Shown one piece after another: positions 66 through 10,745 of a DNA stretch of 10,745 nucleotides (positions are counted from its first letter, which is position 1; each line of letters starts with the position of its first letter). The notes under the pieces were generated by a model. The model saw only the letters and a program-made list of their open reading frames with translations. It did no database searches and had not been told where the DNA came from. Both the position numbers and the translations under genes were made by a program. The stretch spans positions 1-10,745 of the forward strand of contig NAVB01002431.1 in the NCBI GenBank assembly GCA_002179805.1, written 5' to 3'. The stretch is from Acanthamoeba lenticulata (Eukaryota > Discosea > Longamoebia > Acanthamoebidae).

Positions 66-1673
66 CTACATCGACATCCCCCAAAACAAAACAACCCCAA
101 CAAGCACCCAACGTTCAGCCTCCCCACCAACCTACGCGACCACAGAGGCAACGAGGGTCTTTCTCGTGATGGGCTCGTACCGCACTCTGCAAACAGGAAC
201 GTTGACACGCAGCGGGTCGTGAGCCAAGCCAAAAAAAGAGCGGAAAAGAGCGAAGAAGAAGAAGAAGAAGTACGTACCACGACGTCCTGCCGTAGGGGGA
301 GCCATCACAGGTCGGATCGATGAACGACGATGGTCAGCCTAAGACTCACGTATACACACAACATACACTCCCAAACAAAACACATAGCGAGAAGCGTACA
401 TCCTGGAGTGGTGCAATGATGAGCATTAGCCGGGGAAGGAGGTACGGTGAGAATGATTATTATCGATTTTGTTTTTATGTGTCCAAATTAGGATAAAATT
501 AGAGCGGGTTAAACACGTACGAATTCATCCTGAAAGACATGAGTGGCCCAGCCAGTTGAAGCAAGTAGACGGTGTGTCAGTTCGTGAGCAGACACGAATG
601 GAGAAGGGAGGGGAGAATTGGCTGCACCTTCTGTTGTACGCAACACAAAAGACATAAAGGAGGAGAGAAGGCAGGCGTGAGTGTCCGCCATGTCATGTTT
701 AAACAGCTGGCAGGGTTGGGGAAGGAGGAAGCCGCACCATCTATTTGGTGTACAAGTTCATGTCCCAATCCACCAGTCCCCTCGCGTTAGTTTCGTCGAG
801 CAAAGCAGCATAGGCGTAGTGCATCACTGTTGGGTCTGAAAGACGCGTACCTCCTACACGAGCACGAATTGAGTAAAAGTCAGTCAGCAGAACAACAGCC
901 ACTACAAAGGATCGAGGACGAGTAGAAGACGTACCACCAACTACAGGCAGTCGAGGCCAAAGCAGATGTGAACAAAACAAGAGGGGAGGAGGCGAAGTAG
1001 TGTGAGCGCGGCAGAGAGGTGCAGAAATTTACTGTACTACATGATGTGGCAGAAGAACGTACGGACGGTTTGTTGATGTCGGCCCCCATTTCCAACAGCT
1101 CGAGGACCGTATCTTCGGCATGTTCACCGTTGTCGGCGCACACCAGGTACAACGGCGTGCACTACACTCGACCACCAGATGGGACCAGTGGGCGTGACCC
1201 AGCAGCAGAGCTCTGGTCAGCCCCTAAAAAGAACAAAATGACGGGACGCGGCAGGAAAAAGCCTGGGGCGCACCTTCTGCTCTCGCGCACGGGTTCAGGC
1301 CGAACGGGATGGATCAGGGCGAGGAAAGGGGACGCAAGAGAACGTGAGATTAGTGACGGTGAAAAGGTTCTACACGAAATAAGGCAAAGGGAAGTGAACC
1401 TCTGGGCCCTGCGTACACATTCATAACAAAAAATTCGTTAAATTCGTCTTGTAGCGATTATGCGATTCGGGCCCCAGTTTGAGAAGAAGAAGAGTTTCTT
1501 ACCACAGTAAGAAGGGAGTTGATGTTGAGGAGCGGGTTGGCATCAAGAATCTCTTGGACGTCTTTCAAATTGCCTGAGTGAATGACGTCGACCAAGCGCA
1601 GTTCCTCGACCTCGGTAGAGATGGAAGGGGAGCTGGTGGACAAAGCGAGCACTGCAGCTGCAGCCGCAGCCAT
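39..1673 (-). CDS. Ankyrin-repeat protein, probable paralogue of the adjacent Roco gene (partial, 3' end outside window)
   Basis: Exon 1 runs from the ATG at 1673 (A at -3, G at +4) to a GTG|gtaaga donor at 1503. It encodes 57 residues: a poly-Ala start, a Ser-rich stretch, then a helix-turn-helix half repeat (LVDVIHSGNLKDVQEILDA). The next full exon, 1063-1161, is an ankyrin repeat. Between and after them lie small phase-0 candidate exons, listed separately. The layout (low-complexity leader, half ankyrin unit, microexons, ankyrin exon starting at TPLY and ending at PS|gtacg) matches the N-terminus of the Roco gene immediately upstream on the same strand. A tandem paralogue is therefore likely. 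No LRR, Roc or kinase part lies in the window, so calling it a Roco protein is an inference. An in-frame ATG-less extension of exon 1 reaches 1838, so a more upstream start is not excluded. Confidence 0.65.
252..270. repeat. GAA/TTC microsatellite
   Basis: Six uninterrupted GAA triplets on the plus strand. On the minus strand they form a TTC pyrimidine tract just after the donor of the 278-286 unit, inside a putative intron. Confidence 0.8.
1063..1161 (-). other. Ankyrin-repeat exon of the left gene
   Basis: Exactly 33 codons, one ankyrin repeat length, from tag|TGC to TCC|gtacgtt, phase 0 at both ends. It begins CTPLYLVCADNGE and ends LELLEMGADINKPS, with the TPLY, LELL and GADIN signatures of the family. 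An in-frame TAG directly upstream forces the acceptor. The exon pairs with 8756-8845 of the Roco gene, sharing TPLY, VLELL, GAD(I/V)N and PS|gtacg, with three extra residues after the first helix. Confidence 0.85.
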
Positions 1674-1980: not shown

Positions 1981-3595
1981 TCATTCTTGGCCCTGGGGCT
2001 CCGCCTCTTCTTGTCGTGCCTTGTTGCCTTCTGGGGCGTACTGTCGCAGACGCTCCACGATCTGACGAAACGTCGGCCGGTCCTCCGGGTTGTTCCGCCA
2101 ACACTCCTGTTTTCGTCATGTACGTCAGGACGACTTGCTCGGCTGGCCTTTTTGGTGTTTGTTGTGGCGGAAGATGGATGGATGAGCAGTGCGCACCTGC
2201 ATGAGGCTGGCAAACTCAGGAGGACAGCTTTCGGGGCCGGGCGGGGTTGGACGGCACTCATCGTTGATGATCGCGTTGATGCAGTCCCGCGCTTGGAAGT
2301 ACCCATTGCGCTGGAACTTGAGCCAATACTCGTCCACGAAGGGCAGCTTCCGCGCCGCGATCTCCCACATGACAATGCCAAAGCTGATGGCCGCCACGGG
2401 GTCAGGCAACATGACGGGCACTGCTGGAGCCACGACGCGACGAACCTGTAGACGTCCGAGCGCTCGTCGTACTCGACGCGCTCCAAGTTGACCACCTCTG
2501 GCGCGAGCCACTGCCACGTGGGGAGTCCCTCCTCGATCGTCGGGTCCGTGTGTCGAGCCAGGCCAAAGTCGCCCACCTTGGCCACGATGGGCGACGCCAC
2601 GTTCGTGCTCACGAGCTGCTCACGAGCCCAGCGGCAAACACACGCGTCGCCAGCGTCAGCCCACACGCGCTCGAGACGCTGGAAAGCAAGGCGCCGGGCT
2701 GGAACGGAGGGAGGTCGACGTACGAAGACGTTGGGCGAGCGGAGGTCGCGGTGCACGATGGGCGGCTGGAAGGAGTGGAGGTAGGTCATGCCCTTGGCCA
2801 CGTCGAGCACGATGCGCCAGCGCAGCGGCCACGGAATCTCCTCGTCCGTCAGCGGCGCCTTGGCAAGGTGCAGGCACTCCTTGGGGAAGAGGCCCTTCTC
2901 CCCGTGCTGGGTCTCGACCTCGCACCACCCGCGCTCCTCCATCGCGGCGTTCCGCTTGATGCCCACCTTCTCGCCTGCGATGGTGCGCCGTTAATCAACG
3001 TCGAGCTCGAGACGAAGCACACAAGGCCGCTCTTTGGACCAAGCTGGGAGGAGGAGGCTATCGCGGTAGTACCCTTGGGGAGCTCCAGCAGCTGCGCGCC
3101 CTCGGGCAGGGGAGAGCGGTGGGCGGCCGCGTAGACCTGGCGGACGACGCCCTTCTGCTGGTTGTCCAGGAAGTGGTAGAGGTCGCCCCCCGCCGCGTAC
3201 TCCATCACCATGCCCAGCGGACGGTGGCAGATGCCAAAGAGCCGGATCACGTGGTCGTGCTGCAGACAGCTGTGGCGTTTCAAGTGGTTAAAAACAATAA
3301 CATTAAAATATAGTTCGACAAAAAGAAAAAAGAAAAAAGAAAACAAACCTCATGAGGAAAGCCTCCCGGCGGAACTCGTCAAACTTCCTGGCCTCCTCTT
3401 CTCGGTCCTCTTCCTTGGCTCGCTGTAATACAAATGATAGAAATGAGTTCCAATTATTGGTTAAAAAAATTAAGAGATCTCTAAAAAAAAGGGAGAACAT
3501 ACGAGGAGGAGCTTGAGCGCGACGGTGGAGTGGTTCCAAGTGGCCTTGTAGACCTCGCCGAAGCCGCCCTTGCCGATGCGGTTGTGCTTGCGCAG
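1981..3595 (-). other. TKL/Roco-type protein kinase domain (seven exons)
   Basis: In order: glycine loop GKGGFGEV (3551-3577), beta-3 lysine in VALK (3512-3514), helix C glutamate in FRREAFLM, hinge MVMEYAAGGDLYHFL, catalytic loop HRDLRSPN (HRDLR at 2739-2753), DFG (2562-2570), APE (2496-2504), SDVYSFGIVMWEI, and the C-lobe end CWRNNPEDRPTFRQI. HRDLRSPN is typical of Roco and related TKL kinases. The tail is short, ending QEEAEPQGQE before TGA. Introns are 3423-3502, 3270-3348, 2975-3072, 2616-2723, 2384-2445 and 2107-2196. The kinase is broken between helices D and E by an SH3-like insert. No catalytic residue is missing. Confidence 0.95.
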
Positions 3596-6500
3596 CTCGT
3601 CCTCACCGATGAGCCGCACGGAGCCCATGGCGATGTCCGGTGCCAGGCGTCCGATGGTGATCCGCCCGCGGTGCGCGGAGCAGCGCACGGGACGCGCGCC
3701 CATGACGGCCTCGATGCACTCGGTGTACTCGAACGCGTGGCGGCACACCTTGTCGCTCCCGCTGCGGACGAGGCACGGGACCCGCTTCTGCACGTCGAGC
3801 CCGATGTAGCCCTGGAAGAGCACGTCCATCACGTAGACCAAGTGCTCCAGCAAGTCGACAAGCAGGATGTCGTCCGCGGCGGCCGACGAGGATGAAGCAG
3901 CCTTGTCCTCTTCGCCCTCGCCCTTGGCCTCGCCTCGCGAGGACACGTCGCTGCCGCCGCTGCTGGTGGCGGCTGACGCGCTGCCTTCGGCGAGCTTCCA
4001 CAGGCTGATGGACTTGACGCGCAGCAGGCCCGAGGCCAGCGAAAGGCTCTTCTTATTGTCCTTGCTGTCCTTGTTCGTGACGGCTTGGTCGAGCGCGGTG
4101 GCGCTGTTTGTGCGGACGAGCAGCTCGAACAGGTAGGTCGGGCTGGAATGTTGGCGGATGAGGGCGCGCTCGGCCACCAGCGTGCCATCGGCCTCCTGGC
4201 GGCAGAGCTCGACCAGGATGCCCGTGCGCCAGGCGAGGATGAGCTTGAGGTCGGGCGTGTGGAGCACACGCACGATGAGGCGCGCAAAAAGGCCGATTGG
4301 CACAAAGTCGCCGAGGTCGTAGATGCGCCCAAACTCGGTGACGCCGCTCTCGCGCACCTCTGGCCACTCCTTGGCTAGGGCCGCGGTCGGACACTCGTCA
4401 GGCAGGAGCGAGGGCACCATGAACAGCTTCCCCTGCGGGCCCTCGGCCTTGGGCTCTTCGGCGTCCTCGCTCTCGGACTTGTCGGGCTTGATCTGCTCCA
4501 CCCGCATCTGAAACAGGATCTGCACAGCGCCGCCCCGTGTGAGAAACTCGAGCTCGTGTGGCGCCGCGATGAGCCGCCGTCGCGGTACCTGAAATCGCTC
4601 AAACATGCGGAGAAGGGCCGGGTGCAGGTGTCGTGGAAAGTCGCGCCAGACCCAGTTAAAGAGTTCTCGCTGGGCGATCAGGCCGTTCTTGATCCATTTG
4701 TTGTTGAAGGAGATGATGCTCTTCATGACGTCGGCCAGCCACTGCGGATCGATCACCACCAGATCCTGCAGGCCGCCGAACGGATCGTCAAAGTGCACCA
4801 GCGTTCCCACATCATGCAGAAAGTGCACGACTTCGCCCAAATCTTCGATGGCAATGCCGCAGCCCTTGCCCAGCTTCTCGATCCGCTCCCAGGTCGTCCA
4901 TTTCAGTCCCTCCTGACGATTTTTTGCGGACACCAAAGAACGAAAACGACGCCAGATCGGTAAAAGAACGAAAGCGATAGCGAGGGGGGGGAGGGCGGAA
5001 CCTGAGCGATCGACTCCCGCGAGAAGGCGATAAGCGAATCGCTGCTAAGAAGCAGAGATGCAGCCCCGCTCGTCGCGCTTGGATCTGCCGTCGTTGATTC
5101 GGCTGGGACCTCGTCTGCGGTGGGGTCTGGGGACTTGCCGCTGCGCAGGTTGTCGATGGTCTGCAGCAGCAGGTGGTAGCTCTCAGGCACCGTCTGCTTG
5201 AGGAAGCTATGCTTCTCGGCCAAGTCGACGATGGCCTCCATGAGCTCTTCGATTCCGTCGCCCGTCCGGCAGCTCACGTAGCAAACCTTGCGCACGTTCA
5301 TGTCTTGTCTGTTCGGTGTGGTGATGTCAGCATGACCGTGGGCCAGCAGGGAAGGGGAGGAAGAGGGGCAAGTTCCGAACCGCTGGATCTGCTTGCCGAT
5401 CTGGAGCAGGGTCTGGCTGCTGGGGCAGTTGGGGTGGTCGATGTGGGTGCCGACGACGATGATGGGCGCCTCGAGCCCCTTGGTCGAGGTCTTGACCTGC
5501 TTGAGCCAGTACTGGAGATTGGTGCGGTCGTCGTCGACGACGTTGAAGACGACGAGATAGAGCGAGCGGGCGGTGAGGAAGAGCTGGTGGGTCGGGTAGA
5601 ACACGACCTGCCCGCCAAAGTCGTAGGTCTGGAACTCGATGGGGTCCCCCTTGGAATCCTTCCGGCGGGGCGTCTTCTTGCTGGCCTGCCGGCTCCAGTT
5701 CTCGGTCGAGAGCCGCCCCATGGAGATCCCGTCCGTGCTGCTCGCCCCCGCCCATGGCCACTGTGAGTCGCGCGGGCCCGAGGCCGAGCCTCACGTACGC
5801 GTACGGGCGGGCGTGTACCTCAGAAGCGGGATGGAGAGGGTGCTGTTCTTCTTTTTCTTGTCGGACGACTTGCCGTTCTTCCGCATGAGCTTGGGATTCT
5901 CGAGGAAGGCGTGGAGGCACTTGAGGATCGACGTCTTGCCCACGTTTTCCCGGCCGACCAGCATCAGCTTCACCCGCGACCACTTGCGCTCGTGTGACCT
6001 GTCCAGCATCCAGCCAACCGACCATCAGCCCTGCTGCTCCATCATCTTCATCATCATCAGCATCGTCGCTACCGTACATTTTGAGGTTGCGCAGGTAGAC
6101 CATCAGCGGCTTGAGGTTGCGGTCGAGCCGCTGCTTGATCTCGACGGGAATGCTGGGAAGCGGGTTGCCGGTGAGGTCCATCTTCTCGAGGTGTTTGAAG
6201 TCGGAGATGAAGGTCGGCAGGACGGTCAGCTGGTTGTCCGACAGGTCGAGCTTCTTCAGCGCGCGAAACTCGCGGACCCACTTGGGCAGCGTCGTCAGGT
6301 TGCGCCCCGCCAGCGACAGCTCCTTCTGCTTCGCCAACACCGATGCCGCCTGCACTCCCCTCGTGTGAGTCTTATGTGATAGTTTTCTTTTTGCAATTTA
6401 TAGAAGAGAAAAATGAAACAATTTTAATAAGAATATAATATAATATATAAAATAAAATGTAAAAAAAGAGGAAAGCAGCGCACCCGCCTCCCCACGATGG

Positions 6501-7519
6501 CGCCTTCGAAGAGGAGGATGAGGGCGACGGCCATGTGGCCTCGCTGCGCAGCTGCATCGAGCGGCGTTTCCTGAGAGAAAGAGAACAGCGAGTCAGCAAG
6601 GGCTCCAATCAGGGACTTCTCCCCGAGGATTGGATTCTTCGCCGTACCTCCTACGCGGCGGTGGCAAGTGACAAAATCAGGTCCAACAACAACAACAAGA
6701 AGGCCATGATGTGAGACAGAAAGGCCTTCACGAAGGCAGGGAAAGCAAGAAAGCTCAAAAAGAGGGCAAGCTGCGTACCTCCTGTCCGCGGCACGTGCGG
6801 TAGGGCGATTGGGAGAGATGACTCAAAGGTGAGCCAACAATAACGTGTCTCTGATAATGATGGCGCAGGTTATGACGGATTGATGGTACGTACATACTGC
6901 AGTCGTGTCGTGATGGAAAGCACAAGTTAGATCGCCACGCGGTGAACGATCGGAGGAAGGGGAGGGGGCGACGTACTCTGGGCTCCTTTACTGTCGGCTG
7001 TGCGGGCCCCGTTTCTCCCTGGGTTAGGGGGTGGGGGGAAGTCGCGTCAATCTCTCCTCCCATGAAGCACTTCTCTTTTTCATCCTAACCGACGAACGTA
7101 CCAACTGAAGGCATCATCATCGTCACGCCACGCATAGAAATGTCCGCAATAAAGGATGAAGGTGAGAATGAGAATGAAGAGTGCGACGCCACAGGCCCAA
7201 GAGTCGAGGAGGAGCACGTACAATCTGCGCATAAGGAAATGATGACGATTAGAAACGGAAAAGAAAGGCGTCAGCGCTGAGCGCCAGGTCCAGGACTTGG
7301 GAGGGAAGGCACGCACGGCCTGGATCGATCAATCAGTCGATCGACAGCATCCATCCGAATGACAACACGGGCGCGGACAAGAACGAGTTTGGTAAGGTCA
7401 GCAAACGGTGCACAGCACTACACGCCTTTGATCTGCACACACACACACACACACGACACCACAAGTAGATGACGTGACATAGCATACCCCCTGCCCGAGC
7501 GAAAGAGCAACACGAACAT

Positions 7520-7550
<31 letters not shown>

Positions 7551-9590
7551 TCAAGTGAGTCCTGGGAGGTTTCGCCTTGCCAACAATCAACAAGTACACG
7601 ATGTCTAGCATGGGACGCAGTTCTTCGTACCAGCTGTGCACGCGTATGGCGTAAAAGTGAAGAACAAGGAAAGAAAACCACCAACAGAATGATGGTTGCC
7701 CAGTCGTGAGCCACAAGTTGCGGTTCCTCCTCCTCTTGGGTTTGGGGCTGCGACACGTACCGTCTGTGTGTGCACAGACGACCAAAAGCGGCGTTCGGTG
7801 TTGGTGAGGGCAAAAAGCGCATGCATGTGAACACCTCTACTCTGAAAGGGCGGCGATTTGGGAGAAGATGGGGGAACAGGCGTACATTCTGATTGGTTGT
7901 TGTTGTTGTTGTTGGTGTTCAATGGGATCGCGACAGACAGCACATCATTCGCGTCACACACAAGTCGTTTAGATATGGCAAGTGCGCCATGTGTGTGGAG
8001 GTATCATGAGGTCAGCCCGCAGGAGACGTACATCCTGCCCGAAGGAAGAACAGTCCAACACGGGAACACAAGAGTGCCATTAGCTTAGATTCGTCATCAA
8101 CAACTACAACATCGTCATCATCTGACACGACCAGAGGAGAAGCGCACCAGCTAATCGTATCGTAGGCCACAACAAGATCAACGTCAGCCCGAGCCCCAAG
8201 AGGTGCGACGCACAACGATCGAAGAGCCAAAGTGAGCTCGTTGGAATGCTAACAACGACATCGGGCAGCAGCTACACAGACAACAACGACAAAATGGACG
8301 TACCCGTTTCTGGTGGAAGAGTTAACAGAGGGCCCAGACACACGCGGAGGAACACAAATGACTTGGGCGGTGAGACAACACAATAATGACGGGGATCATC
8401 GTTCTTGTGCATGCACTTACCGTCTGGAGGCAATGGGCACACGGTGTCAGTAGTGGACAATGGACGAGAGACGAAGAGAAAGAAGAAGAAGAAGGAGGAG
8501 GAGGAGAGATGGTCGTACTCGCTGCGGGGAGGAGGAGGAGGACCAATCAAGCGACAAAGCAAGACAAGAAGCAGCAGACCAGCGGCAAGGAGGCGGATGA
8601 GCGTGAGTGATCATGAGAGGACTTGACCATGGAGTGGTGGGGCGCCTCTCACGTACCCTCTGTTTCGTGAATGGGAGAAGGAGGAAGAAGGGGCACGTCG
8701 GTCAAAACAAGAAAAGACCAATAGGTCAAGAGCTGAGGCGCGGGAAGAGTCGTACGGAGGGCGCGTTGACGTCCGCGCCTCGTCGGAGCAACTCGAGCAC
8801 AAAAGTGGCCCGTCCCTCCTCCGCCGCCACGTACAGAGGAGTCCTCTGCATGCGTCCCGCCAGGCGTTCCGTCAATCAAGCACGTGCCTTGAGTTTGCGA
8901 GGTGTGATCGTACCCACTGCACGACGGCCAGCCCAACAGCAGCAGCAACAACAGTCGTGTTTGTGTTGAACAGGAAAGACCGTAAGGCACGTGTGGCTGG
9001 TTAGGGCAGCAAGAAAAAGGGGACAATTGTCGGCGTACCTCCTGCACGAGTACGTCAGCAAAAAAGGGAAAGAGACCGTGAAAGACGAGGAGGGGGAGGG
9101 GGAACGCATACCTCGGCCTAGGCCATGTGCATGTCGGGAACGGGAGGTCCAGAACCGGACGCACGTGGCACCATGAAACAAAGCCCACGCGTCATTTTCC
9201 CACCAACCAAAACGAAGACGAATAAAAAAGCGAACACCGACGGAGGGCTGGTGTGCCGGGGGGGGGGGAACGAGAGGAAAGGCGCACATCGATGTGAAAG
9301 ACGGCGTTGACGTGGGGAAGCCGGTCGAGCAGGCTTCGCCAGGACACCTCGTCGCCCAGCTTGGCCGTCTCTTCGAGCTCTTTGAGGGCGGCCGCGCCGC
9401 CAATCCGTACGGCGCCCACCGAAGGGACCGAGGCATTGCCTCCTGTGAGCGTACCTGTGGACGAGGCGGGCGACGCCGAATTCGGGGGACTCACCCCCGT
9501 CGTGCTGCTGCTGCTGTTGGTGCTGCTACTGCTGCTGCTGTTCACCTTTCTGGTCCCATCGTCGGTATGGGGCCGCGACAGCTTGTTCAT
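1981..9590 (-). CDS. Roco-family protein kinase (ankyrin-LRR-Roc-COR-kinase with inserted SH3-like domain)
   Basis: Large exons in transcription order: 9288-9590, 8756-8845, 6484-6570, 6078-6349, 5819-5998, 5381-5737, 5002-5308, 3503-4912, 3349-3422, 3073-3269, 2724-2974, 2446-2615, 2197-2383, 1981-2106. Every junction is GT-AG and phases agree throughout, giving 1,336 codons before the TGA, plus roughly 20-25 from candidate microexons at 6648-9117. The ATG at 9590 has A at -3. The frame stays open to 9839, so a longer N-terminus is possible. Roco proteins couple a Roc GTPase and COR dimerisation module to a kinase, usually as cytosolic signalling scaffolds. All GTP-binding and kinase motifs checked here are intact, so an active enzyme is expected. 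The partner and pathway cannot be read from the sequence. Domain entries below give details. Confidence 0.93.
2862..3149 (-). other. SH3-like domain inserted in the kinase domain
   Basis: After helix D (GDLYHFLDNQQKG) the protein reads VVRQVYAAAHRSPLPEGAQ, then LLELPKGEKVGI, then RGWCEVETQHGEKGLFPKEC, before helix E resumes at PWPLRWRIVLDVAKGMTYLH. This follows the SH3 pattern ALYDY, ELSFKKGD, GWW, G(R/K)xGLFPxNYV. The length is about 62 residues, usual for SH3. The 98-nt intron 2975-3072 cuts through it (phase 1). Visible departures are Cys in place of the second Trp and Glu-Cys in place of Asn-Tyr, so proline-peptide binding may be altered. The family call is from motif reading, not a profile search. 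Confidence 0.7.
3596..5204 (-). other. COR region and linker to the kinase
   Basis: COR starts near VPESYHLLLQTIDNL (about 5205) and continues in the 1,410-nt exon 3503-4912 after an 89-nt intron (4913-5001). Family-like stretches include LGEVVHFLHDVGTLVHF, LVVIDPQWLADVMKSII and the region ending FMVPSLLP. In Roco proteins COR mediates dimerisation and relays the GTPase state. Two low-complexity insertions are visible: an acidic one near 4433-4488 (SESEDAEEPKAEG) and a Ser/Ala/Glu-rich one near 3870-3980. The linker to the kinase carries a Cys/His-rich segment at about 3655-3785. Confidence 0.85.
5205..5998 (-). other. Roc GTPase domain
   Basis: Motifs in order: G1 LVGRENVGKTS (about 5929-5968), G2-like STDGIS at the start of exon 5381-5737, G3 DFGGQ (5608-5622), G4 as THID (5437-5448, the Roco form of NKxD), and G5 SCR (about 5266-5277). 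Introns are 5999-6077, 5738-5818 and a 72-nt in-frame one at 5309-5380. The acceptor at 5738 was chosen over an earlier AG because only it restores the reading frame and the STDGI motif. All nucleotide-binding motifs are present, so GTP binding is expected. Confidence 0.93.
6078..6349 (-). other. Leucine-rich repeats (three)
   Basis: One 272-nt exon holds KELSLAGRNLTTLPKWV, LKKLDLSDNQLTVLP and LEKMDLTGNPLPSIP, three LxxLxLxxNxLxxLP repeats, then a capping helix leading to NLKM. Three is few for a Roco protein. The repeats directly precede the Roc P-loop, the standard order. The exon joins Roc through the 79-nt intron 5999-6077 in phase 2. Confidence 0.92.
6350..6483 (-). other. AT-rich intron between ankyrin and LRR exons
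   Basis: 134 nt, donor gtgcgc and acceptor gtgcag. Its centre is almost pure A/T, unlike the GC-rich exons and the milder intron string upstream. No reading frame or RNA gene is visible in it. Confidence 0.7.
6484..6570 (-). other. Ankyrin-repeat exon (last before the LRRs)
   Basis: 29 codons from ctcag|GAAACG to CGG|gtgcgc, phase 0 at both ends. It reads ETPLDAAAQRGH, then LILLFEGAIVGRR, with the TPL-xAA-xxGH and LL-xxGA signatures. The first four ankyrin positions are absent from this exon. The three single-codon units just upstream (Y, E, E) would supply them. Confidence 0.85.
7436..7454. repeat. CA/GT dinucleotide repeat
   Basis: Nine CA units plus one C on the plus strand. On the minus strand this is a GT run ending directly at the cag acceptor of the weak 7424-7432 unit. 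That acceptor could therefore be a repeat artefact. Confidence 0.9.
7511..7550. repeat. CACGAA hexamer repeat
   Basis: About six and two-thirds copies of CACGAA, one with T for C (CATGAA). It lies inside the putative intron between the L (7631-7633) and G (7488-7490) units. It is a simple repeat with no spacers, so not a CRISPR array. Confidence 0.9.
7896..7914. repeat. TTG/CAA trinucleotide repeat
   Basis: A run of about six TTG units on the plus strand. On the minus strand it is an AAC run immediately before the acceptor of the 7886-7888 unit. A shorter CAA run of the same kind lies near 6684-6698. Confidence 0.75.
8756..8845 (-). other. Ankyrin-repeat exon (first full repeat of the Roco protein)
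   Basis: 30 codons from gcag|AGG to TCC|gtacgac, phase 0 at both ends. It reads RTPLYVAAEEGR, then FVLELLRRGADVNAPS, a clear ankyrin unit. Stops upstream in frame leave no earlier acceptor. The exon lacks the three or four residues that normally precede RTPL. The AE, E and W units upstream provide them. Confidence 0.9.
8914..9117 (-). other. Three microexons between exon 1 and the first ankyrin exon
   Basis: 9112-9117 (AE, donor gtatgc), 9039-9041 (E, gtacgc) and 8914-8916 (W, gtacga). All follow TAG or CAG, with introns of 170, 70, 122 and 68 nt around them. Joined in order they give HID-AE-E-W-RTPLY, filling the hairpin positions that a normal ankyrin repeat needs (consensus DxxGxTPL). This fit is the best protein-level support for the microexons. 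Confidence 0.65.
9288..9590 (-). other. Exon 1 of the Roco gene: Ser/Thr-rich leader and ankyrin half repeat
   Basis: 101 codons, from ATG to GAT|gtgcgc. Residues 1-60 are low complexity (two poly-Ser runs, then Ser/Pro/Thr/Gly), with no signal peptide or membrane segment. Residues 66-101 form a helix-turn-helix, with ALKELEETAKLGDE followed by RSLLDRLPHVNAV. It aligns with exon 1 of the left gene (SGNLKDVQEILDANPLLN). Confidence 0.75.
9504..9540. repeat. CTG/CAG-type triplet run encoding poly-Ser
   Basis: Mostly CTG triplets on the plus strand, with TTG, GTG and CTA variants. On the minus strand it is read as AGC/AGT serine codons in exon 1 of the Roco gene. Length polymorphism would be expected. 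Confidence 0.85.
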
Positions 9591-9971: not shown

Positions 9972-10745
9972 ATGTGTGCGTGTGCTGCCACTTTGGTCCT
10001 CTCTACACTCCGGCGAGGAACTCCTAACGACGGCGCTTGCGCAAGCACAGGGTCCCTCCCAAAGGGCCACCGAATGGGCAACCCAGGCGGCCCGCCGCCG
10101 CTCAAGACACTCGAAGAGCTCGAAGCCAGCAGCGGGCCCTTCCACGCGACCACCGTGCGCCACCTCCTCCACGAGCAGCACGAGAGATTTCGGCGACCCG
10201 AGGAGAAGCAGCGGATCGTCAACTTGCTCCCACGCGTCCAAGGTGCGCTCGAGTGCTTCTCTGATCGGAACGATGCGGCGGCGGCTCTGACACGTGTTTC
10301 TGCTCGGTGCGGCCGCTCCGTTGTGCCACAAAACGAACCCAACAGTCGGAGACTTGTACTCGTACAGCGCGTTGATCCGCGAGCTGGTGCGATTGGACCT
10401 GCTCCATGAGGGCGTCCAGTTCCTCATCCGCGTCGACGCCGAGGGCCTCCCGATGACCGCCCAGCTGTTCAACATCGTCATCGACGCCTATTCCAAGCGA
10501 GGCCTCACGGAGAGTACGTGACGAATCAACCCACGTCACTGGAATCTTTCATGAACCGAGCGTTGATCGTGCCGTGCCGTGTTTGAAATGCCTCGTGCGC
10601 AGACATGGCCGACCTGGTGGACATCATGAAGTCATGCCACGCACAACCGGACAAGTTCACCTACGCCATCTTGCTGAACCACTACGCCAAGCAGGGCGTC
10701 GTGTCTGAGCTCGAGCGACTCATCAAAGAGATACTGAAGAGCAAG
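9972..10745 (+). CDS. Pentatricopeptide-repeat (PPR) protein, probably organellar (partial, 3' end outside window)
   Basis: Exons 9972-10242, 10346-10513 and 10603-10745 join in frame through introns of 103 and 89 nt (donors gtgcgc and gtacgt, acceptors aacag and gcgcag). Three degenerate 35-residue P-class repeats are visible: SYSALIRELVRLDLLHEG, then LFNIVIDAYSKRGLTEN ending QPD, then FTYAILLNHYAKQGVVSEL. PPR proteins bind single-stranded RNA in mitochondria or plastids and act in processing, stability or translation. The N-terminus (MCACAATLVLSTLRRG) is basic and free of acidic residues, consistent with a mitochondrial presequence. The ATG at 9972 is the first in frame but has a poor context. 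The upstream open frame includes LPLRRFASKS, which also looks presequence-like, so an upstream spliced start is possible. Confidence 0.82.

Follow-up and report, generated by a model that had tools for sequence, protein, structure and literature searches.

How small can a coding exon be, and how many such exons can follow one another within a single gene? This question is raised by a gene of Acanthamoeba lenticulata, here called gene 1, located on the minus strand of the 10,745-bp stretch of DNA under analysis (the window), which corresponds to the entire contig NAVB01002431.1 (C1390) of a genome set of 48.5 Mb in 1825 contigs. Among PDB entries, a profilin frame of this genome was closest to profilin II (1f2k) and profilin I (1acf), both from Acanthamoeba castellanii, in keeping with an Acanthamoeba source. 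Pieces of gene 1 matched ANK, LRR, Roc, COR-A, COR-B and protein kinase domains, with Pfam scores on the separate pieces of 53.8 bits for Roc, 62.3 for COR-A, 27.9 for COR-B, 30.2 for LRR_8 and 27.6 for PK_Tyr_Ser-Thr. Because of these matches, in which Roc is followed by COR and accompanied by LRR and kinase as defines a Roco kinase, gene 1 is predicted to be an Acanthamoeba-type Roco kinase with the architecture ANK-LRR-Roc-COR-kinase. A long series of very small units was found between its first coding exon and an ANK exon at 6484-6570. We consider it probable that the coding sequence of gene 1 is split in this region by short spliceosomal introns into phase-0 exons of one or two codons, which would most likely be present in the mRNA.

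The spacing of candidate splice sites was determined on the minus strand of positions 6571-9287, with YAG-NNN-GT as the unit. YAG ended exactly 3 nt upstream of the strict donor GTACG at 13 of 17 sites, and at none of the three GTACG sites on the plus strand. Across 2000 dinucleotide shuffles, offset 3 averaged 0.03 and no offset exceeded 2. The enrichment proposed in an earlier reading of these letters (hereafter the sequence-only reading) is thus confirmed. Addition of GTATG, GTGCG and GTAAG donors brought the count to 17 single-codon units and two units of 6 nt (GCCGAG, 9112-9117; AAACGG, 8304-8309), the same counts as in that reading, which had also described the lack of this spacing on the plus strand and the exons 9288-9590, 8756-8845 and 6484-6570, all of them open and with lengths that are multiples of three. 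Of the four GTACG sites outside the triplet pattern, that at 6976 is ambiguous, those at 8755 and 8834 belong to the 90-nt ANK exon, at its end and inside it, respectively, and that at 8303 follows a 6-nt unit. When candidate lengths from 0 to 15 nt were counted with GTGAG and GTACC also admitted as donors, 17 candidates had 3 nt, two had 6, two had 7, and lengths 1, 11 and 14 appeared once each, the others being empty; the antisense strand yielded no candidate of length 3 with this wider donor set.

Five more ANK genes of the same genome contain such units, namely the Roco-like tandem gene 2 and genes on contigs C374, C462, C431 and C591, the latter four reached by pattern searches plus ANK or LRR homology. 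An LRR match lies downstream in C374, C462 and C591, which look by eye like Roco genes; in C431 and its counterpart C966 (L013/L019, minus strand), ANK is followed by what appear by eye to be WD40-like repeats. The list of exons of 18 nt or less in the six genes, compiled by eye, has 70 entries (51 of 3 nt, ten of 6, five of 9, two of 15 and two of 18). Every unit lies between AG and GT and consists of whole codons with no stops; the script demanded multiples of 3 and no stops, so neither of these traits counts as evidence. The 80 introns of these genes have a median length of 102 nt (range 66-272 nt). In an unconditioned spectrum of five genes, candidates of length 3 numbered 45 in sense (102 donors) vs 3 in antisense (103 donors), and lengths 0, 1, 2, 4 and 5 pooled gave 3 in sense vs 7 in antisense.

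The enrichment was also looked for in other introns. Twenty ANK stretches (C591 among them), selected for short open frames from 150 listed matches, gave a flat spectrum with 4 of 216 donors at length 3, and small exons are therefore not a general trait of ankyrin genes; but a mild excess at offset 3 (9 of 86 GTACG) was observed in 22 LRR loci, which include three haplotype pairs recognised by near-identical flanks. Paired YAG-NNN-GTACG sites at a spacing of 70-100 were located in the genes described here in 8 of 12 pairs (reversed control 8), and at a spacing of 101-131 in 15 of 16 pairs (reversed control 5). Further pairs at intron-like spacing were noted in C90/C91, C387/C519 and C693 (L009, L010, L012, L016, L028). 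A genome-wide microexon excess was rejected: CAGN3GTACG occurred 1643 times vs 1278 for CAGN4GTACG, but the reversed controls gave 2366 and 1130, indicating a composition effect, and with the strict pattern YYNYAGN3GTACGY (264 vs 238 for N4; reversed 443 and 228) no genome-wide effect is claimed. An apparent preference for GTACG after small exons (48/70 vs 6/16 after large ones, p 0.04) is biased by exon-finding and was left unused, and a splice-site matrix kept too few units for use.

Since the units had been picked on the window sequence, contig C8, which aligns with the window over its full length at 95.9% and is apparently its other haplotype, provided an independent test. All 29 small-exon elements (AG, exon and GT) of genes 1 and 2 were identical in C8; random intron windows of equal lengths were intact in a mean of 20.3 of 29 cases, and none of 5000 samples reached 29. 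Substitutions around the units of gene 1 left the consensus intact, with CAG replaced by TAG and GTACG exchanged for GTAAG in either direction. In a set of four genes represented by both haplotypes (genes 1 and 2 in window/C8, C462/C909 and C431/C966), differences were found at 1 of 168 nt of the small exons, 4 of 714 nt of the large exons, none of 208 AG/GT positions (large exons included) and 266 of 4925 intron positions (gaps in the second haplotype counted). The levels of difference relative to introns were significant for small exons (Fisher p 0.001) and for small exons with AG/GT (p 4e-8). The single difference, a synonymous GAC/GAT, is located in C431/C966 (L013/L019, minus strand). A fifth pair, C591/C946, had no change in any of the six small exons shown; in C591, one AAG acceptor corresponds to CAG in the other haplotype. 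These comparisons covered genes 1 and 2, C462, C431 and C591, with C374 outside them.

TPLH is a motif of ankyrin repeats, and the canonical entry hairpin has a length of 7. Single-codon exons N, G and M stand directly before TALHWAC in C462, single-codon exons Q, G and R directly before MLLHWAS in C431, and exons GG and W directly before TPLHYAA in C591. Read in this register, the predicted residues of the small exons of these three genes are the ankyrin hairpin preceding TPLH. Eight hairpins of C462, C431 and C591 lie between ANK exons and hold small exons; for these, the distance from TPL to TPL was 34, 33, 32, 33, 33, 33, 29 and 33 with small exons vs 29, 31, 29, 32, 27, 28, 23 and 30 without them, so that exactly 33 residues were obtained in 5/8 hairpins vs 0/8. 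One of the five, RAV-GG-W, uses a 9-nt exon whose donor was chosen after seeing 33: this C591 unit was taken as AGGGCGGTG before GTACTT, not as AGGGCG before GTGGTA, since the former yields 33 residues. The entry hairpin of C462 measures 6 with the units and 3 without them, the former being nearer to the canonical value, and the Pfam scores of C462 with small exons increased in Ank_4, Ank, Ank_3 and Ank_5 and decreased in Ank_2 and in the weak models Ank_KRIT1 and ANK_LRRK2. The loops of C591 (L076, C591:67801-70101; L084 in C946) take the forms KDKDG (15 nt), RNNDEM (18 nt), TDG (9 nt), RAV-GG-W and an uncut VDRVGW, which may represent a graded series for intron gain within one gene. On balance, the register in C462, C431 and C591 is the strongest sign that such exons would be translated. 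The explanation by in-frame one-codon exons of a Roco kinase, one of two offered in the sequence-only reading, is supported by the conservation between haplotypes, the 45 vs 3 excess at length 3 and the supply of hairpins by such units in further genes.

The predicted exons of gene 1, all on the minus strand, begin with a first coding exon of 101 codons ending in VNAVFHID (9288..9590, donor GTGCGC, open frame, multiple of 3). It is followed by a 6-nt exon GCCGAG encoding AE (9112..9117, TAG-GCCGAG-GTATG, identical in C8), a single-codon exon GAG for E (9039..9041, CAG-GAG-GTACG, with donor GTAAG in C8) and a single-codon exon TGG for W (8914..8916, CAG-TGG-GTACG, TAG-TGG-GTACG in C8). The 90-nt ANK exon RTPLYVAAEEGRATFVLELLRRGADVNAPS (8756..8845, open frame, multiple of 3, compared with C8) comes next. 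A longer chain of candidate exons then begins with single-codon exons AGG for R (8657..8659), CGA for R (8519..8521) and ACG for T (8421..8423, donor GTAAG in the window and GTACG in C8), and the 6-nt exon AAACGG for KR (8304..8309). It continues with single-codon exons CTG for L (8148..8150, donor GTGCG), GAT for D (8032..8034), AAT for N (7886..7888), ACG for T (7761..7763), CTG for L (7631..7633), GGG for G (7488..7490, donor GTATG), GCC for A (7317..7319, donor GTGCG), ATT for I (7222..7224) and TTG for L (7102..7104). After an ambiguous possible exon, the chain ends with single-codon exons TAT for Y (6894..6896), GAG for E (6779..6781) and GAG for E (6648..6650), followed by the ANK exon ETPLDAAAQRGHMAVALILLFEGAIVGRR (6484..6570, open frame, multiple of 3). 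All small exons of this chain, with their flanking AG and GT, are identical in C8. The ambiguous unit PTVKEPR (21 nt, 6977..6997), placed outside the small-exon count, is identical in window and C8 in its 21-nt reading; a 42-nt reading before donor 6976 has acceptor CAG in the window and AAG, hence no YAG acceptor, in C8. Positions 6977-7018 and donor 6976 show no haplotype difference, though the acceptor just upstream differs. Full inclusion would insert AEEW between the first exon and the ANK exon 8756-8845, and would put RRTKRLDNTLGAIL(PTVKEPR)YEE between the two ANK exons. The rest of the gene, within the part checked, covers approximately 2423..6349 with several introns and carries LRR, Roc, COR-A/COR-B and kinase domains by Pfam.

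A metagenomic relative, P0009, a 185-residue frame on a 1552-base metagenome contig, contains the ANK exon, with 87% identity across 10% of the query, and its flanks read through. Its upstream SSGYA is compatible with CAG-TGG-GTACG, the W exon of gene 1 (3.3% of shuffled flanks), and its downstream RRGYD with CAG-AGG-GTACG, the R exon (0.4%), while the E unit fits under a relaxed donor only (shuffled 11%). Judged from protein residues alone, these patterns give a hint in support of the W and R exons. In protein searches, the read-through frame of the second ANK exon had no matches, and the COR-kinase piece matched two proteins, neither of them named.

The long chains of gene 1, gene 2 and C374 deserve separate consideration. 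Consecutive small exons, mostly single codons, number 16 in gene 1 (or 13 + 3, should the ambiguous unit prove to be an exon) and 12 in C374. The small exons of the entry hairpin supply 4 residues in each gene, cut as AE-E-W in gene 1, GPE-K in gene 2 and EM-E-R in C374. The inner chain supplies 17 residues in each: R-R-T-KR-L-D-N-T-L-G-A-I-L-Y-E-E in gene 1, LV-E-M-K-DEF-D-DVV-SA-IE-N in gene 2 (IE and N read in C8) and G-R-R-WNFQT-L-DD-S-M-T-D-M-T in C374, with one further residue in the next exon. These equal totals, differently cut in three paralogues, are suggestive of a fixed product; they were noticed afterwards, and they omit from genes 1 and 2 a longer unit that is ambiguous (in gene 2, a possible 27-nt unit seen by eye).

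Several observations weigh against the routine inclusion of small exons. Ankyrin spacing without the chain is 30, 33 and 31 in gene 1, gene 2 and C374, respectively, vs 47, 50 and 48 with it; a second loop of C374 has 32 without small exons vs 40 with them; and the entry hairpin without the units is 7, 8 and 6 in genes 1, 2 and C374 vs 11, 12 and 10 with them. The entry hairpin of C431 is likewise nearer to canonical without the units (6 vs 9). Pfam preferred omission of the chain in 5/6 models for gene 1, where small exons together with the ambiguous 14-residue unit gave a gain in Ank_5 only; for C374, scores dropped in Ank_2, Ank_3, Ank_4, Ank_5 and ANK_LRRK2, tied in Ank and gained slightly in two weak models. 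The residues of the chains vary between paralogues with no conservation. The flanks of P0009 gave no match for the AE unit, the second R unit or, under a strict donor, the E unit, and YAG-Nk-GTACG at k = 1 and 6 upstream and 2 and 6 downstream also fitted once each. Candidates of length 6 were no commoner in sense than in antisense (9 vs 8 in five genes), and the 6-nt exons therefore rest on conservation and context. Weak sites comprise the AAG acceptors of two single-codon exons of C462 (L060) and a GTTCAC donor in gene 2. Because skipping yields the more canonical ankyrin spacing, the predicted routine inclusion of the long chain of gene 1 is less certain; inclusion of long chains is nevertheless favoured because of the haplotype constraint in genes 1 and 2, the frame, and the equal totals cut differently.

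These data bear directly on alternative inclusion, in which the single-codon exons would be real but optional, and the loop would vary in length and sequence by transcript, up to skipping of the full chain. We regard this explanation as rather unlikely. All listed units are phase 0 and 3n, so any subset of them retains the frame; skipping of the chain brings genes 1, 2 and C374 near 33, and the Pfam scores of gene 1 and C374 tend to favour it as well. On the other hand, most short hairpins of C462, C431 and C591 come close to 33 only when their small exons are kept, and the equal totals of 4 and 17 suggest a fixed product. A more specific and somewhat more doubtful form of it is a combinatorial loop, in which any subset of the phase-0 codons between two ankyrin repeats might be included by stepwise splicing along the chain. 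If true, this would generate very many variants of a putative recognition surface in Roco kinases, with the frame unchanged.

Far less credible is recursive splicing of one long intron, the other explanation of the sequence-only reading, in which the triplets would be by-products of ratchet points. At ratchet points, acceptor and donor sites lie together inside an intron and no bases are retained. Gene 1 shares with them acceptor and donor sites placed side by side in series within an intron, but its units hold whole codons conserved between haplotypes. The spacing is 3 nt rather than the AG-GT with zero bases expected, no candidate of length 0 was found on the sense strand of five genes, and the region measures just 2.7 kb. 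In addition, recursive splicing exons (RS-exons) begin with a 5′ splice site, and none of the 70 listed exons begins with GT. Chance or a compositional artefact of repetitive introns, to which the mild excess in the 22 LRR loci might point, is the least plausible explanation of all, given the shuffle maximum of 2 against 13 observed, the lack of enrichment in antisense and in the 20 ANK stretches, the haplotype constraint on the units and the little genome-wide excess under the strict pattern (264 vs 238).

With phase-0 exons of one or two codons as the preferred reading, all or nearly all units would be joined into mRNA by intron definition, probably intron after intron, and U1 would pair with the codon plus the following GTACG. 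The 5′ end of U1 in the A. lenticulata genome is ATACTTACCTG, the usual one. Donors prefer an exon ending in G, and 34 of the 51 single codons end in G. Since a 3-nt exon is about as large as the exonic portion of the site that pairs with U1, exon definition seems hardly possible for such exons; introns of about 100 nt suit intron definition. The arrays may have arisen through repeated phase-0 intron gain within an existing loop-coding stretch, as suggested by the residue totals of 4 and 17, which are equal in the three long-chain paralogues although the cuts fall at different points. An all-vs-all comparison of the 80 introns for introner elements, that is, shared intron sequence, gave one 32-nt match (E 4.6e-5), and because the introns share almost no sequence, no introner family was seen. 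The product of gene 1 would carry a loop longer by 17 residues between two ankyrin repeats.

Tiny exons in series have been described in other systems. Micro-exon genes (MEGs) of Schistosoma mansoni hold many small, mostly 3n exons serially in one gene, with exons of 3-81 bp according to the abstract and of 6-81 bp, mostly 15 bp, according to the results, long introns and secreted proteins (PMC10526429). The Acanthamoeba genes resemble MEGs in their series of symmetric 3n exons (45 sense vs 3 antisense candidates of length 3), but differ from them in their runs of 3-nt exons, a median intron of 102 nt and a location in ANK loops of kinases; the combination of a short protein with long introns that marks MEGs contrasts with the ANK-LRR-Roc-COR-kinase pieces and introns of 66-272 nt found here. 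Excerpts on plant microexons, including the 1-nt exon of Arabidopsis APC11, report tiny constitutive exons, and for the 1-nt exon propose intron definition with recursive-like sequential removal (PMC4674806, PMC8831610, PMC11096116); within these excerpts, each plant site has a single microexon or two adjacent ones, in contrast with the 16 consecutive ones of gene 1. As far as the excerpts describe them, human RPS24 has three consecutive microexons and Drosophila homothorax a 3-bp exon (PMC12686416, PMC7392893), which shows, as in gene 1, that 3-bp exons exist and can adjoin other microexons, but there with one 3-bp exon each and alternative isoforms. The A. castellanii genome is reported to have 6.2 introns per gene (PMC4053784). 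Microexons are exons of about 30 nt or less, and the candidate microexons of gene 1 have acceptor and donor sites that are present and kept between haplotypes. No open-licence paper joining Acanthamoeba with microexon or micro-exon was found, the one joining Amoebozoa with microexons was unrelated by title, and no report of long runs of one-codon exons was found in the open-licence literature searched. Single 3-nt exons and small clusters are thus already known, and it is the degree predicted here, a strong prediction, that would be new.

Two further features were located in the window. Gene 2 occupies positions 1-1673 on the minus strand, runs on into C8 and aligns with the LRR-to-kinase part of gene 1; its ten small exons of 3-9 nt (GPE, K, LV, E, M, K, DEF, D, DVV and SA; 181..1408, minus strand) flank an ANK exon at 1063-1161. 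At the other end, positions 10083-10745 on the plus strand hold what looks by eye like a fragment of a PPR-type repeat protein gene.

If transcripts confirm the predicted exons of gene 1, splicing would join as many as 16 successive one- or two-codon exons precisely in a single mRNA, an extreme case of exon smallness and packing density. Such genes would lend themselves naturally to tests of intron definition and splicing order, and would represent intron gain taken almost to one intron per codon. They would also caution that residues may go missing unnoticed from the gene models of intron-rich protists.

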